DNA of 20,402 nt from a virus. The notes below the pieces were generated by a model that had not been told where the DNA came from, searched no databases, and was given only the letters and a program-made list of their open reading frames with translations. The position numbers and the translations under genes were made by a program. This document shows, piece by piece, positions 7,495 to 18,145 of this stretch (within the stretch, counting starts at the first letter, position 1; each line of letters begins with the position of its first letter). The stretch covers positions 1 through 20,402 of the IMG/VR virus record IMGVR_UViG_3300030329_003727; one strand, given 5' to 3'.

Positions 7495-7827
7495 CTACAG
7501 ATAATCACAAATACTATATAAACCATATTTTAAAGTTAATTCGTCTCCTTGTTTTATTTTTTTAAGTGTTTTTAAATGTTTATATTCTTCATGTTCATCA
7601 TCAATTAATTCACAATTTGGCTTTTCTGAATGATTTATAAATCCCCCTAAAGGAGTACGTATATAATCATGTTGAAAATTTGGATCATAAACATGTGTAA
7701 TACCTATAACTACCTCTCCTGGAATGTCTTCTCTAGCGAGAATCCCTGCTCCATGAATTTGTGACGGACCTATTGCCAAGTATTCCGGGAGAGGGTTATA
7801 AGGTCTTTTTTTATCTTTTTTACTCAT
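7495..7827 (-). CDS. SET-domain protein, putative protein lysine methyltransferase
   Basis: A minimal SET domain of 110 residues. Visible hallmarks are the GxG-type S-adenosylmethionine loop (IHGAGILAREDIPGE, about 24-38), the knot motif NHSEKPNC (65-72) and the C-terminal GDELTLKY (94-101) with the expected tyrosine. The family transfers methyl groups from S-adenosylmethionine to lysine side chains; the substrate here is unknown. I chose the ATG at 7827, just after the terminase stop, with an AT-rich leader. A longer frame from 7848 adds MIQIIIN and would overlap terminase by 20 nt. Its place between terminase and portal, inside a packed head operon, suggests action on a virion or packaging protein (inference). 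No pre-SET or post-SET cysteine clusters are present. Confidence 0.75.
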   Translation of the reverse strand: MSKKDKKRPYNPLPEYLAIGPSQIHGAGILAREDIPGEVVIGITHVYDPNFQHDYIRTPLGGFINHSEKPNCELIDDEHEEYKHLKTLKKIKQGDELTLKYGLYSICDYL

Positions 7828-7828
7828 A

Positions 7829-9793
7829 TTAATAATAATTTGTATCAAACCATTTATCTGCAGCTCTATCTTCTAATATATCTTTAACTTCTGCATTATA
7901 TAATTCTCTAGTGTGGTACATACCAACCATAAACGCCATTACACGGTCAAAGTTACCATCATGATTAAATTTAATTAACTCTTGTAATAAAGCCGGGTCA
8001 TATATTTTATGCAAATTTAACAATTGCTTTCCATTTTCATCAGTCCTTCTTACAGTATTTAACCAATCTCTAATATAAATTTCCCCTTGTTTTTTCCTAG
8101 CTTCTGTCATATGCATCCCATATTGCCTCTTTACTTTTCTAGATTGTAATTCTCTTTTATCTAACATTTCAAATTCTTCTTGTAATTTATGTAACTTCCT
8201 ATGTCTCTTTGCGTATGCTATAACCTCTCCACGATCATTCTCAAATCCAATTTTACACCCATAATAATCTGCTAGCATAAATAAATTACGATTATACTCA
8301 TCCTGAGTATGCGGCCTACCTACATAAGAAGCAACAATAATATCGTCTGGATGAGATAAATTATTAGGACGTTTTAAAACATAAGCTGCCCCTAAAGATG
8401 AAGAATCTGCAGATTGATTTTGCCCATAAGGGTCATGGCAAACTACATATAAATTTCTAGGGACTTGTTGTCTTTTATTTTTATAAGGAGCTTCATATAT
8501 AACAACTGCCCCTGTAGTATCATCATCTTTTCTATGAGGAAATTTTATCACCTGTTTTGCATCTCCATCTACAGAAAATTTTATTTTTCCATCTTTACCA
8601 TAATATAATTTACCTACTGTACCAATAGAATGTAAATTTCTAGCTTTAATATTATTATACTGCTCTTGTAAAGAAGCTACATCAAATAAATTAGCAGTAA
8701 CCCTTAATGTAGCTTCCTGAGGAGAGAAAGGGTGCTCTGCAATATATTGGTCTAATGATTTTGCGTCTGCAGCCCCCTTTTTCTTTTCCCTCATTTCTTT
8801 TTCATATTCTATAGCGTCAGTAGCTTCAGAATTTCCCTCTCGATCTATAAATCCATCTAAGTTAGTTTGTATTGGGATAAAATACCCACATTTACTCCCC
8901 ATAGCTCCTTCATCCCAGATATTTTCATAATCCATACAATCATATGCTGCAGGATTATAAAAGATTTCTTCCATTGCTTCAAAATCAGAACCTTCTGTAC
9001 CTCCTGTACCAAAAGCTATCATCATCCCTAAAGTTTTAGCCCCTTGCCGCATTGTAGGCATGGTTACCTCCCAAGCTTTTAATAATCCTGGGAATGATCC
9101 TGCTTCTTCAAAGAATACTAACTCCCCTGCTTTACCCCTTACTTTATCTGGAGCATCTTTTAAACTTACCCCCATTATTTGAGATTTCATCCCCATCTCA
9201 ATCTCTAATCCATTTACTTTCTTTTTATACCCAGACATTTTATGCATTTCTCTATCTCTTAATCGTGGTTGAGCCCATGCAGTGTGATCATCTATAAAAG
9301 ATAAAAACTCCCAAGCTTTTGAGAGTAATCCATCACCAATTAAATATTCTTTTTGAGAAGCAAATACAAAGTTTTTAGAGTTACGGACAAAGAAATAATT
9401 ACGTGCTAACATAGCCCCAGCTTTATATGAATATCCTTTACGTCTAGCTTTTAAGACAATCATATGTTTATTCTTAGCCCTAGCTTTATCTATTTCTTGG
9501 AAATACTCCCAATCTCCATCATAAAATCTAGGGAAAGTTCGTTCACGTTTCGATTGAATTGTACCATCAGGCAATTTCTCATCTACAGCTCTATCAATAG
9601 GACAATAATTTAAATAGAAATAATGAAATCCTGTAACATGTAATTCATCTACAGTATATCCATACATACAACGCTTTTGTTCCTCATCCCAGAATTCATA
9701 ATACTCTCTTGTTCCAGGGAGAGCGTCTGTATAATGCCCCTTTTCTATAAACCGTAAAGCTGCTGCTCTTATTCTATCTGTTCCTTTAAACAT
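7829..9793 (-). CDS. terL: Terminase large subunit
   Basis: This 654-residue packaging motor ATPase and headful or site-specific nuclease docks on the portal. The Walker A-like loop is KARRKGYSYKAG (about 115-126), an arginine-finger-type variant seen in terminases. Walker B is GELVFFEEAG (about 223-232) with the catalytic glutamate. A coupling-type motif FGTGGTEG follows at about 261-268. The nuclease half carries VVCHDPYGQ (D454) and IGFENDRGE (E518), as expected for the RNase H-like metal site, with a third acidic residue likely near the C-terminus. The length is normal for a full ATPase plus nuclease. Its start overlaps the preceding 91-codon gene by 25 nt, consistent with coupled translation. 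Confidence 0.92.
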   Translation of the reverse strand: MFKGTDRIRAAALRFIEKGHYTDALPGTREYYEFWDEEQKRCMYGYTVDELHVTGFHYFYLNYCPIDRAVDEKLPDGTIQSKRERTFPRFYDGDWEYFQEIDKARAKNKHMIVLKARRKGYSYKAGAMLARNYFFVRNSKNFVFASQKEYLIGDGLLSKAWEFLSFIDDHTAWAQPRLRDREMHKMSGYKKKVNGLEIEMGMKSQIMGVSLKDAPDKVRGKAGELVFFEEAGSFPGLLKAWEVTMPTMRQGAKTLGMMIAFGTGGTEGSDFEAMEEIFYNPAAYDCMDYENIWDEGAMGSKCGYFIPIQTNLDGFIDREGNSEATDAIEYEKEMREKKKGAADAKSLDQYIAEHPFSPQEATLRVTANLFDVASLQEQYNNIKARNLHSIGTVGKLYYGKDGKIKFSVDGDAKQVIKFPHRKDDDTTGAVVIYEAPYKNKRQQVPRNLYVVCHDPYGQNQSADSSSLGAAYVLKRPNNLSHPDDIIVASYVGRPHTQDEYNRNLFMLADYYGCKIGFENDRGEVIAYAKRHRKLHKLQEEFEMLDKRELQSRKVKRQYGMHMTEARKKQGEIYIRDWLNTVRRTDENGKQLLNLHKIYDPALLQELIKFNHDGNFDRVMAFMVGMYHTRELYNAEVKDILEDRAADKWFDTNYY

Positions 9794-14556: not shown

Positions 14557-14689
14557 GTGAGTGTGATGGGACGGTTACATTACAATATTGTGTATAGCAC
14601 ACAGTATATAAATGTTGCTGCTATAAAATCTATTGATGCAGAGTTGCACAGATTTTAAAATGGTTGTGTACAACCTACATCACATTCAC
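14557..14689 (+). ncRNA. Candidate cloverleaf-like RNA with four-way junction
   Basis: The interval 14,492-14,705 has no gene but a neat fold. A 12-bp closing stem (14557-14568 with 14678-14689, one G-U) surrounds three arms. Arm one is ACATT/AATGT (14577-14581, 14611-14615) enclosing an 8-bp stem (14585-14592, 14600-14607). Arm two is an 8-bp TAAAATCT/AGATTTTA stem (14624-14631, 14650-14657) with inner TGCA/TGCA. Arm three is GGTTG-TGTA-CAACC (14662-14675). A short T-run follows at 14693. It is not a tRNA: arm sizes are wrong and there is no T-loop. No known class was recognised. Confidence 0.6.
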
Positions 14690-14705
14690 CACTTTTTACC
14701 ACAAT

Positions 14706-14734
14706 TTGACAATTAACTAGAATACTAATATAAT
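14706..14734 (+). promoter_or_regulatory. Perfect sigma-70-type promoter TTGACA-17-TATAAT
   Basis: TTGACA (14706-14711), exactly 17 nt, then TATAAT (14729-14734). This is the classical proteobacterial consensus, not the Bacteroidota one. It lies 16 nt before the 32-codon gene at 14751. It may be an early phage promoter or chance in AT-rich DNA. Confidence 0.45.
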
Positions 14735-14750
14735 ACAATATAACACTGTT

Positions 14751-15725: not shown

Positions 15726-15799
15726 AAATTAAACTCTCGAAAGTTTTAACTTGAATCCCTTGAATAGGTTTATCCTTGATTTGGTAGAGAGTTTAATTT
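15726..15799 (+). ncRNA. Hairpin RNA with perfect 13-bp stem
   Basis: AAATTAAACTCTC (15726-15738) pairs perfectly with GAGAGTTTAATTT (15787-15799), enclosing 48 nt that include AGG-TTTAT-CCT. It lies 27 nt after the membrane-protein stop. It could be an mRNA 3' end or an independent small RNA; no U-run follows. Confidence 0.5.
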
Positions 15800-15810
15800 A
15801 AAATTTGTAC

Positions 15811-15935
15811 ACAGGTATTTATAGACTATACCTTGTTTTCTAGAAACTAAAAGAATCTTGACACTGACTAACTGCAGATAGTCACTATTTGAAACAACAT
15901 ACTTTGATATGAGTGTTTAATATGTAAAGAGTGTC
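15811..15935 (+). ncRNA. Structured leader in front of the hammerhead
   Basis: Hairpin GGTAT/ATACC (15814-15818, 15828-15832) is followed by GACAC (15860-15864), which pairs with GTGTC (15931-15935) around a TGACTA/TAGTCA hairpin (15865-15870, 15879-15884) and CATA/TATG. The closing stem abuts stem III of the ribozyme, so they could stack coaxially. Confidence 0.35.
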
Positions 15936-15986
15936 CTTATTTTGTGATGTGTATCACAACTGATGATTCCAAAAGGATGAAATAAG
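15936..15986 (+). ncRNA. Type III hammerhead ribozyme
   Basis: All core parts are present in order. Stem III 5' strand is CTTAT (15936-15940). The cleavage triplet is ATT, with scission expected after T15941. Stem I is a 7-bp hairpin (15942-15948 with 15953-15959, loop GTGT). The core CTGATGA is 15960-15966. Stem II is TTCC-AAAA-GGAT (15967-15978), then GAA (15979-15981), then ATAAG (15982-15986), which pairs with CTTAT. The U-A pair next to the cleavage site is kept. The only irregularity is a U-U at the base of stem II, where G-C is usual, so stem II has just three Watson-Crick pairs. The 3' product would begin at 15942 and carry the downstream structured RNAs and the 16235 gene. Confidence 0.78.
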
Positions 15987-16029
15987 AAAATAAAACCCAA
16001 GTATTACAGACGAAACGAAAGTTAGAAGT

Positions 16030-16115
16030 GAAATCTTGCACGGGTTTGAAGGTTACTTACAGCATTTATTAGGAAATACTTGACTTGTTAATGTAACCTG
16101 TTTCTGCAAGATTTC
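16030..16115 (+). ncRNA. Two-tier stem RNA downstream of the ribozyme
   Basis: A perfect 11-bp stem (16030-16040 with 16105-16115) encloses a perfect 7-bp stem AGGTTAC/GTAACCT (16050-16056, 16093-16099). GGGTTT (16042-16047), in the internal loop, can pair with AAACCC (15993-15998) upstream, a possible pseudoknot linking it to the ribozyme 3' flank. Confidence 0.5.
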
Positions 16116-16127
16116 TTGTTATAATCT

Positions 16128-16216
16128 AAAATGAGTGTGTTAAAGAATGTATTCAGCAGTCTTAAATTAATTACTAAATAAATTAAACACACATTCTGTT
16201 ATTGCACACTCATTTT
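16128..16216 (+). ncRNA. Long-stem RNA upstream of the 69-codon gene
   Basis: A perfect 12-bp stem AAAATGAGTGTG/CACACTCATTTT (16128-16139, 16205-16216) encloses AGAATGT/ACATTCT (16144-16150, 16191-16197) and an AT-rich tip. It ends 18 nt before the ATG at 16235 and may be part of that gene's leader. Confidence 0.5.
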
Positions 16217-16234
16217 ATTAAAATCAATTAAATT

Positions 16235-16444
16235 ATGGAAAAAATTACAAACTTTTTTGCTTTATATTATGATATGGTTCATAGACAAGGCAAATCATTA
16301 GTAGATGTTAAATTAAAAATATTAAAAGATAGACAAGATGATAAAATATCTGATTTAGTATATTTTAGTTTAATGAAAGGATTAGCAAAGGAAGAGCAAC
16401 AATTTGAACAATTGAAAGAAATTGATAAATTTTTAGATAGTTAA
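16235..16444 (+). CDS. Small helical hypothetical protein
   Basis: A 69-residue protein predicted to be helical throughout: MEKITNFFALYYDMVHRQGKSL, then VDVKLKILKDRQDDKISDLVYFSLMKGL, then KEEQQFEQLKEIDKFLDS. Mixed charge and short length would suit a two- or three-helix bundle or a protein partner. No family is recognised. It is flanked on both sides by candidate structured RNAs and sits directly upstream of the Ro-like gene, so a role in the same ribonucleoprotein is possible but unproven. Confidence 0.65.
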   Translation: MEKITNFFALYYDMVHRQGKSLVDVKLKILKDRQDDKISDLVYFSLMKGLAKEEQQFEQLKEIDKFLDS

Positions 16445-16452
16445 TGAATTAA

Positions 16453-16671
16453 AGGAAAGGGATTCAGCAAATAACAACTATAAACAACAAATGTCAGTGA
16501 GATAAAGCCGAACCATATTGCCCATAGGGATTGATATGGGGGTTAACCTTTACGGACTGAATATTTAGTTTTGTGCATTTCTAGTGGATAGAAATCAAAT
16601 AAAAAATGCACAACACCCTTTCCTGTTTAATGCGAGCATTGCTTGGTCACAACCCCAAGATTAGAAACGCA
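16453..16671 (+). ncRNA. Multi-branched RNA directly upstream of the Ro-like gene
   Basis: A 9-bp closing stem AGGAAAGGG/CCCTTTCCT (16453-16461, 16616-16624) encloses two domains. One is ATTCAG/CTGAAT (16462-16467, 16557-16562) with inner CCATAT/ATATGG (16513-16518, 16534-16539). The other is TTGTGC followed by ATTTCTA-GTGGA-TAGAAAT (16577-16595), closed by TGCACAA (16607-16613). A 3' domain has TGCG/CGCA (16631-16634, 16668-16671) enclosing CTTGG/CCAAG (16642-16646, 16655-16659). It is unusually G-rich for this arm and no frame spans it. No known class was recognised. It may be an untranslated leader, an independent RNA or a ligand of the downstream protein. Confidence 0.55.
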
Positions 16672-16714
16672 GAGTGGACAATTAACATTAATATAAACTA
16701 AAAAATCATTAAAA

Positions 16715-18145
16715 ATGGACAAGTCAAGTTTAATAGATGTAATGCGTCAAAAAGACACATTAACATCTAATGATGCAATTACACATTCAACATCATTAAA
16801 TAATTGTGTAGATTTATTCTTTATTGCGGGAGCAAGTAGAAGAATGAGTGAAAAAGAAATTCTAATTATGTTTCAAAGAGCATATGCAGAAGATAAATTA
16901 CTTGCTTTAACTCTATTATTTTGGAGTAGAGATATTAGGGGGGGAGCAGGAGAAAGAAGATTCTTTAGAATTATTTGGAATCATCTTGTTAAAACTAATA
17001 ATGATATTTTTGTTAGTTCATTATTACCTTTAATCCCTGAATATGGTAGATGGGATGATATTTGGAAAATAGAAAGTTTTAGGCCTTTAATGTCTAATTA
17101 TTTAAGTATTAAAATATCTGAAATTATTCTTGGTACTGATAATTCATTATTATGTAAATGGTTACCAAGAAAAGGTATGTTATTTGAAATGATTAGAAAG
17201 AGATTAAAAATGACACCTAAAGAATTAAGGAAAGTATTAGTTAATAATAGTCACACTGTTGAACAACAAATGTGTGAAAAAGACTGGAAACATATAGTAT
17301 ATTCTCATATTCCTTCAGTTGCATTTGCAAGATATCGTAAAGCATTTAATAAACATGATGAAACAAGATTTCAATTATTTTTAGAAAATGTTAAAAAATA
17401 TGGAGATGAAAAGATAAATGCTAATGCTATATTTCCTCACGATGTTATTAAAGGCGATATTTTATTAAATGGAGTAGATGAACAATGGGCTAATTTACCT
17501 GATTATATGGAAAATTATAATGGTAAATTATTACCTGTTTGTGATGTATCTGGTTCTATGGGAATAGAAATATCCGGTAGAACAACAGCTTTAGATGTAT
17601 GTATTGCTTTAGGTTTATATATATCTGAAAGAAATAAAGGTATATTTAAAGATGCATTTATGACTTTTAGTGAAAATCCTGAAATGAATTATATAAAAGG
17701 TGATACAATATCTGATAGATATTCACAATTACATTCAGCTGAATGGGGACTAAATACAGATTTGTATTTAACTTTTAAAGTTTTATTAAATAAAGCATTA
17801 GATAATAATATAAGTTCAGATGAAATGCCTGATACATTATTAATTATGTCTGATATGGAATTTGATTCAGCTGTAGAAAATTCAACAAATTATGAAGCTA
17901 TTGAAGCATTATATACATCACATGGATATAAAATCCCAAAGATAGTATTTTGGAATTTACAAGGTAGAATAGGAAATGTTCCTGTTAATTGTAATGTCCC
18001 TAATACTGCACTTGTTAGTGGATTTAGTCCTGCGATATTGAAATCTATTCTTAAGAATGAAAAAGTTATCTGTACGCCATTAACTATAATGTTAGATACT
18101 TTAAATTCTGAAAGGTATGACTTAATAAGAAGCACACTTTCATAG
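16715..18145 (+). CDS. DUF2828/Ro-like protein with von Willebrand A (MIDAS) domain
   Basis: A 476-residue protein. The N-terminal part (about 1-250) is helical and resembles DUF2828 and the TROVE repeats of Ro60/Rsr: NCVDLFFIAGASRRM, then LALTLLFWSRDIRGGAGERRFFR (about 63-85) and LLPLIPEYGRWDDIW (about 103-117). The C-terminal part is a vWA fold with a complete metal-ion-dependent adhesion site: CDVSGSM (D277, S279, S281), T348 in GLNTDLY and D380 in LLIMSDMEFD. Ro proteins bind misfolded and Y RNAs through the helical ring and help nucleases in RNA quality control. That an RNA is bound here is inference from resemblance and from the RNAs upstream. The hairpin terminator overlaps the stop codon. 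The DUF2828 link was by recognition. Confidence 0.75.
   Translation: MDKSSLIDVMRQKDTLTSNDAITHSTSLNNCVDLFFIAGASRRMSEKEILIMFQRAYAEDKLLALTLLFWSRDIRGGAGERRFFRIIWNHLVKTNNDIFVSSLLPLIPEYGRWDDIWKIESFRPLMSNYLSIKISEIILGTDNSLLCKWLPRKGMLFEMIRKRLKMTPKELRKVLVNNSHTVEQQMCEKDWKHIVYSHIPSVAFARYRKAFNKHDETRFQLFLENVKKYGDEKINANAIFPHDVIKGDILLNGVDEQWANLPDYMENYNGKLLPVCDVSGSMGIEISGRTTALDVCIALGLYISERNKGIFKDAFMTFSENPEMNYIKGDTISDRYSQLHSAEWGLNTDLYLTFKVLLNKALDNNISSDEMPDTLLIMSDMEFDSAVENSTNYEAIEALYTSHGYKIPKIVFWNLQGRIGNVPVNCNVPNTALVSGFSPAILKSILKNEKVICTPLTIMLDTLNSERYDLIRSTLS

Follow-up and report, generated by a model that had tools for sequence, protein, structure and literature searches.

The question raised by this locus is whether a short intergenic stretch in a phage early region encodes a self-cleaving RNA and, if so, what its cleavage would do to the early transcript. 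The window (the whole stretch of DNA analysed, 20,402 nucleotides, IMG/VR record IMGVR_UViG_3300030329_003727) is a fragment of a marine crAss-like phage, the terminase of which is 85-89% identical to that of 80 IMG/VR contigs and approximately 38-42% identical to those of gut crAss-like phages. The early region of the window is hypervariable among relatives. The features considered were as follows.

14706-14734, plus strand: consensus sigma-70-type promoter, 12/12 (TTGACA-N17-TATAAT), at the head of the early arm; surroundings (14677-14747) conserved in relatives
15813-15935, plus strand: conserved upstream element (AGGTATTTATAGACTA..; GACAC/GTGTC; variable hairpin; TTGAAAYRACATACTTTGA; CTTTG../..TAAAG) abutting stem III of the hammerhead; 80% identity to L158 over 15813-15990
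15936-15986, plus strand: type III hammerhead ribozyme, predicted cut 15941/15942; assigned from core, stems, Rfam score, covariation, and homologues with compensated stems (L158, L223, L040-type, Bruynoghevirus)
15967-15978, plus strand: hammerhead stem II, with a U10.1-U11.1 mismatch, then TCC/GGA and loop AAAA; a subfamily hallmark by pattern counts and PMC3088659
15996-16120, plus strand: structured noncoding RNA directly 3' of the hammerhead; fold of 15942-16240 at -59.3 kcal/mol, z -2.2; no relative of it found
16126-16217, plus strand: long imperfect palindrome (AAAATGAGTGTG...CACACTCATTTT), from sequence and fold
16235-16444, plus strand: small ORF of 69 aa between the ribozymes, putatively coding, from the ORF list
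16453-16620, plus strand: structured noncoding segment just 5' of the twister; fold of 16445-16714, twister included, z -2.83
16622-16682, plus strand: twister ribozyme, type P1-like, predicted cut 16628/16629; 44.9 bits with a window-free model, homologous to the L169 twister-P1 match, covariation in nine sequences
16715-18145, plus strand: gene for a DUF2828/DUF7788 protein (phrog_850, RNA-binding protein), 3' of the twister, from domain and family matches

Letters, fold, and homologues of the hammerhead

The initial annotation had proposed a type III hammerhead at 15936-15986, and this assignment was upheld, as no core position or stem is out of register and the homologues are compensated. 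The element reads, in order, CTTAT (15936-15940, first strand of stem III), T15941 (U15941 in the RNA; H17, the predicted cut site), TTGTGAT (15942-15948), GTGT (the loop of stem I), ATCACAA (15953-15959, second strand of stem I), CTGATGA (15960-15966), T, TCC (15968-15970), AAAA, GGA (15975-15977), T, GAA (15979-15981), and ATAAG (15982-15986, second strand of stem III). C3, U4, G5, A6, N7, G8, and A9 are present in CTGATGA and G12, A13, and A14 in GAA, and the A15.1-U16.1 pair is A15982-U15940. Stem II is formed by TCC/GGA with loop AAAA, and the 10.1-11.1 pair at its foot, normally G-C, is a U15967-U15978 mismatch. The three helices, with stem III open as in type III, are backed by covariation.

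The covariance-model search proposed in the initial annotation bore out the assignment in part: a scan of the whole 20-kb window with Rfam did not list the hammerhead, even at E<10, and a scan of a 121-nt stretch returned Hammerhead_3 (RF00008) as the top match at 26.3 bits (E 4.7e-4; per record E 1.9e-5), which is below the gathering score of 48.5. Topology, core, GAA, and A15.1-U16.1 are shared with RF00008, from which the window departs at the base of stem II, by U-U in place of G-C. A random origin had been called very unlikely, and the controls agree. Only 7 hammerhead-like arrangements (stems of at least 5/3/4 bp) were obtained in 10,000 Markov-1 windows of the same dinucleotide composition, and reversed sequence gave 0 matches in 2.9 Mb, compared with 143 in the forward loci. 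Together with the covariation described below, these results ruled out a chance origin.

A blastn comparison of the hammerhead flanking region against phage records gave matches that coincide exactly with the ribozyme in 12 Pseudomonas Bruynoghevirus (LUZ24-like) genomes. In Clew-1 and PaP3 the element consists of ATCGT or GTCGT, A followed by the cut, TCGGGAT, GTGT, GTCCCGG, CTGATGATTCC(A/T)AAAGGATGAA, and ACGAT or ACGAC; compared with the window, stems I and III have mostly different letters and are fully compensated, whereas the core, stem II, the U-U, and the stem-I cap are unchanged. A second match in the LUZ24-like group, at L008:2350-2403, was weak and was rejected on inspection for want of proper stems. 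Block 15813-15990 recurs in L158 (=L224) at 80% identity and also in L223, in which stems I, II, and III are all altered in a compensated way. The L223 copy carries a swapped U15.1-A16.1, an arrangement that is less active according to PMC3088659. Loss of the core in close relatives had been named as a result that would count against the ribozyme; the core is retained in L158 and L223, where the element is present, and most relatives are without the element altogether.

A pattern scan of viral contigs yielded at least 119 matches (the pattern AACATACTTTGATATGA by itself matches coding DNA too), and full type III stems were found in 61 of 101 distinct matches, among the matches listed. In a gapless alignment of 51 sequences, the rows of which were chosen partly by their stems, 98.0% of cells were paired, 13 of 15 pairs had changes on both sides, and the covariation score was 0.784 (0.220 after shuffling and no more than 0.11 after sliding). 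Stems played no part in finding the closest homologues (L158, L223, L040-type, and Bruynoghevirus), which came from blastn, the core pattern, or an upstream motif. Judged by letters, fold, and covariation, the type III hammerhead at 15936-15986 is genuine and belongs to a subfamily, widespread in phages, whose mark is U10.1-U11.1; cleavage is predicted. No type II hammerhead was found in the relatives of the window, and a search of them for pistol ribozymes, run without a positive control, found none. Weak hammerhead-core matches were also seen in 62 phage records from Flavobacterium columnare hosts.

The twister and the segment between the two ribozymes

The described setting, intergenic in the early arm with structured RNAs around it, was supported. 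The description had omitted the previously unlisted twister at 16622-16682, which lies approximately 690 bases past the hammerhead on the same strand; twister-P1 was first revealed by a scan 3' of the hammerhead of L158. In the window the twister reads TGTTT and, across the predicted cut, AATGCG..CTTGGTCACAACCCCAAG..CGCAGAGTGGACA, and forms the P1, P2, and P4 helices and a CAC/GTG (T1) pseudoknot expected of a twister. The U-A step in TGTTT/AATG corresponds to the twister cleavage site (PMC6154101). A covariance model built from eight relatives, with the window left out, scored the window copy at 44.9 bits (E 3e-11). Among nine twister sequences, both-side changes were found at 4/4 pairs of P2 and 2/4 pairs of P4; T1 is invariant as CAC/GTG (CAC/GUG) in 9/9, so that covariation speaks neither for nor against the pseudoknot. 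T1 of the env22 twister is CCC/GGG. With Rfam, no twister-P1 match was listed in the window, in which Twister-P5 scored 12.8 bits, and the relatives scored 34-55 bits for twister-P1 (L136 55.3, L139 54.8, L169 43.7, L158 37.2, and L223 34.2), all below the cutoff of 67.2; the L169 match is homologous to window 16616-16696 by blastn. The window shares with twister-P1 (RF03160) the P1, P2, and P4 helices, the U-A step, a GGUCNCAAGYCC-like motif in loop 4, and the T1 pseudoknot, and differs from that listing in having no listed match and in the T1 letters CAC/GUG. Each of the nine twisters precedes a gene start, and for eight the gap is roughly 20-35 nt; the one in the window is 33 nt ahead of the RNA-binding-protein gene.

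Between the GroES-like gene and the 18545-type gene, at least one ribozyme was present in 10 of 19 contigs, with nine twisters, three type III hammerheads, and one type I hammerhead in total. In this interval of a close relative, L191 carries a perfect type I hammerhead (4211-4160, minus strand) approximately 20 nt ahead of an ATG.

Ahead of the twister, eight relatives have a conserved RNA of approximately 390 nt with 74 consensus pairs, 44 of which show changes on both sides, and no Rfam match. The L139 copy (5735-5354, minus strand) ends at the twister, as do those of seven other relatives. In L158 and L223 the profile of this RNA runs from within a few nucleotides of the hammerhead up to the twister; cleavage at both sites would therefore release an RNA of approximately 417 nt in L158 (fold z -4.1). 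It had been suggested that the hammerhead processes an early transcript or trims the 5' end of a small RNA, and this proposal is partly supported by comparison, since in these two relatives a conserved noncoding RNA has its 5' end next to the hammerhead. The approximately 390-nt RNA was not found by sequence in the window, where the 69-aa ORF lies between the ribozymes; the piece excised there would therefore not be the RNA of the relatives. A hammerhead is missing from most relatives with a twister, in which the RNA must therefore acquire its 5' end in some other way. A known large phage noncoding RNA was considered and rejected, as the regions of L158, L040, L008, and L139 gave no Rfam match except the twister, plus the L008 hammerhead in a shorter scan.

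Because both self-cleaving RNAs are on the same strand, they are placed to cut a defined piece from a transcript. Our preferred reading, to which we assign a probability of roughly two in three from the sequence comparisons, is that hammerhead and twister cut the early transcript, release the intervening segment, and set the 5' end of the next mRNA. We infer that transcription runs rightward, starting at the early promoter. The hammerhead would be the 5' cutter of a two-ribozyme processing unit, cutting at 15941/15942 and leaving a 2',3'-cyclic phosphate end and a 5'-hydroxyl end, and the twister would cut at 16628/16629. Both cuts would release the structured, mostly noncoding 15942-16628 (687 nt, one small ORF included); the mRNA of the downstream gene would start inside the twister, 86 nt ahead of the start codon. 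In L158 and L223 the released piece would be the conserved, highly structured RNA (approximately 417 nt in L158). The ribozymes would in this way trim an early noncoding RNA from the transcript and free the downstream mRNA. It counts against this model that both window ribozymes are below Rfam gathering cutoffs or unlisted, that the window hammerhead may be slow, that the RNA of the relatives was not recognised in the window by sequence, and that a hammerhead accompanies the twister in a minority of the relatives that have one.

A different account is that each ribozyme acts alone as an mRNA separator, dividing a polycistronic transcript into mRNAs of one gene each, all with standard 5' ends, and that the RNA between them is a functionless leader or spacer. 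The same was proposed for prophage hammerheads in PMC3088659, the window twister stands 33 nt ahead of a gene, and 68 of 90 scorable phage type III hammerheads lie between co-directional genes, typically with the cut approximately 40 nt past the upstream stop and the end approximately 31 nt ahead of the next start. The window hammerhead is, however, atypically placed, 242 nt past the upstream stop and approximately 249 nt ahead of the next start in a 535-nt noncoding stretch, and what precedes the twister in L158, L223, and six other relatives is an RNA that is conserved and covaries, unlike a spacer. We consider this account unlikely, although worth keeping in view.

The initial annotation had presented the role of the hammerhead as new, which was overstated: phage hammerheads flanking genes were described in 2011 by Perreault et al. 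(PMC3088659). As in their prophage arrays, self-cleaving RNAs are spaced along a phage transcript in positions to split it, with cleavage predicted in the window; unlike in those arrays, two classes, hammerhead and twister, bracket one segment, which is a conserved noncoding RNA in relatives. A two-class bracket around a conserved noncoding RNA in crAss-like phages was not found described in our literature search, outside which many subscription papers lie. Such an RNA bounded by two ribozyme classes poses a testable question: do the ribozymes set the ends of a functional phage RNA?

In engineered 'Tornado' circular RNA cassettes, an RNA is freed by two flanking ribozymes with 5'-OH and 2',3'-cyclic phosphate ends. 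The arrangement in the window differs in that it is natural, is carried by a phage, and has a hammerhead on its 5' side; circularisation, the outcome in 'Tornado', would here be conjecture. It is rather doubtful, and offered as speculation, that in marine crAss-like phages a 5' hammerhead and a 3' twister form a natural cassette for excising a dedicated, structured RNA, the ends of which (5'-OH and 2',3'-cyclic phosphate) would suit circularisation by an RtcB-type ligase, and that the RNA may here act with the adjacently encoded DUF2828/DUF7788 protein. That protein resembles Ro60/TROVE proteins; it was found in 681 phage records, but not close to the ribozymes of the relatives. A Y-RNA as partner of the DUF2828 protein found no support, the hammerhead-bearing L158 and L223 having no such gene nearby.

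Stem II, the cut site, and the rate of cleavage

The U-U at the foot of stem II had been regarded as the one weakness of the hammerhead. It proved to be the conserved mark of a large phage subfamily, a member of which, from PaP3, is published as active (PMC3088659); a slow ribozyme is still predicted from AUU and U-U. The PaP3 ribozyme has U10.1-U11.1 and no other core change is apparent, and it is given as an active variant in the legend to Figure S6 of that 2011 paper, so that a phage hammerhead is not in itself new. That paper describes U10.1-U11.1 as a tolerated natural variant, and its default filter retained matches with such a 10.1-11.1 variant only where activity had been measured; the state found in the window is therefore a named variant of the hammerhead family, not an exclusion from it.

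The PaP3 hammerhead (Bruynoghevirus; PMC3088659) resembles that of the window in its 51-nt architecture, U10.1-U11.1, stem II TCC/GGA, stem I cap GATGTGT(A/G)TC, and position in a phage early/terminal gene region. Unlike in the window, the PaP3 ribozyme runs up to the start codon of the following gene, the purine-rich strand of its stem II is a likely ribosome-binding site, and a long leader lies upstream; the window instead has a noncoding stretch, U17 rather than A17, a crAss-like phage background, and then the twister. In LUZ24-like phages (L008 650-1065, Clew-1; L225, PaP3), the hammerhead and the start region of the first rightward gene overlap, with stem II AAAAGGA as the likely ribosome-binding site and a noncoding leader of approximately 370 nt upstream that has no Rfam match. 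A literature search for LUZ24 5' ends found nothing.

Pattern searches that made no selection on position 17 were used to relate that position to the foot of stem II. In the set of 122 unique type III sequences, the U-U group has A17 in 61, U17 in 7, and C17 in 1, and the G-C group has C17 in 39, A17 in 8, and U17 in 1 (Fisher p 3e-21); among 118 unique type I hammerheads, which have a permuted topology, the U-U group has A17 in 19 and C17 in 1, and the G-C group C17 in 90, A17 in 6, and U17 in 1 (p 4e-15), both p-values overstating independence because the sequences are related. The type III trend persists in 44 clusters by variable arms. In phage hammerheads of types I and III, therefore, U10.1-U11.1 apparently goes with A17 or U17 and G10.1-C11.1 with C17, a coupling that appears to be unreported; it was not found described in the literature search, many subscription papers being out of its scope. 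Both classes, U-U/A17 and G-C/C17, often occur on one contig, and single contigs carry three to five hammerheads (L033, L025, L017, L031, L112, L115, and others). A coupling between stem II foot and cut-site nucleotide in two permuted topologies, often with both forms in one genome, suggests two tuned hammerhead classes.

The window hammerhead combines U17 with U-U, as do 7 of the 69 U-U type III sequences. It is probably slow, given the AUU cut site, the U-U, the 3-bp stem II, and a competing minimum-energy fold in which stem III runs on into the core. That it has decayed altogether, from an active ancestor to a ribozyme now too slow to matter through U17, U-U, and short AU-rich stems, would agree with the low Rfam score, the competing fold, and the absence from most relatives. 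This is nevertheless improbable: L158 and L223 keep the core while L223 alters stems I, II, and III on both sides, from which we infer that selection has held the fold recently, and the U-U subfamily is large and conserved, with the PaP3 member reported active in the legend cited above.

The upstream element and its surroundings

The last approximately 75 nt of the upstream element, together with the hammerhead, occur in an unrelated marine phage type (L040, L069, L072, and L317); the L040-type copy is placed just 3' of the terminase gene, inside a unit closed by a terminator-like hairpin. A natural allosteric ribozyme, in which the upstream element is a sensor domain controlling hammerhead cleavage, is very improbable, since few independent lineages are available and the element could instead be a promoter or the 3' terminus of another small RNA, even though it abuts stem III, TTGAAAYRACATACTTTGA is nearly invariant, the flanking helices appear changed on both sides, and the element travels with the hammerhead into an unrelated phage type.

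A hairpin AACTCTC...GAGAGTT at 15735-15795, upstream of the hammerhead element, was not found in relatives. The 12/12 sigma-70-type promoter at 14706-14734 would be unusual if the host belongs to the Bacteroidota, whose promoters differ. Elsewhere in the window, a small ORF at 7495-7848 (minus strand) appeared SET domain-like by eye, with a GGFINHSEKPNCEL motif.
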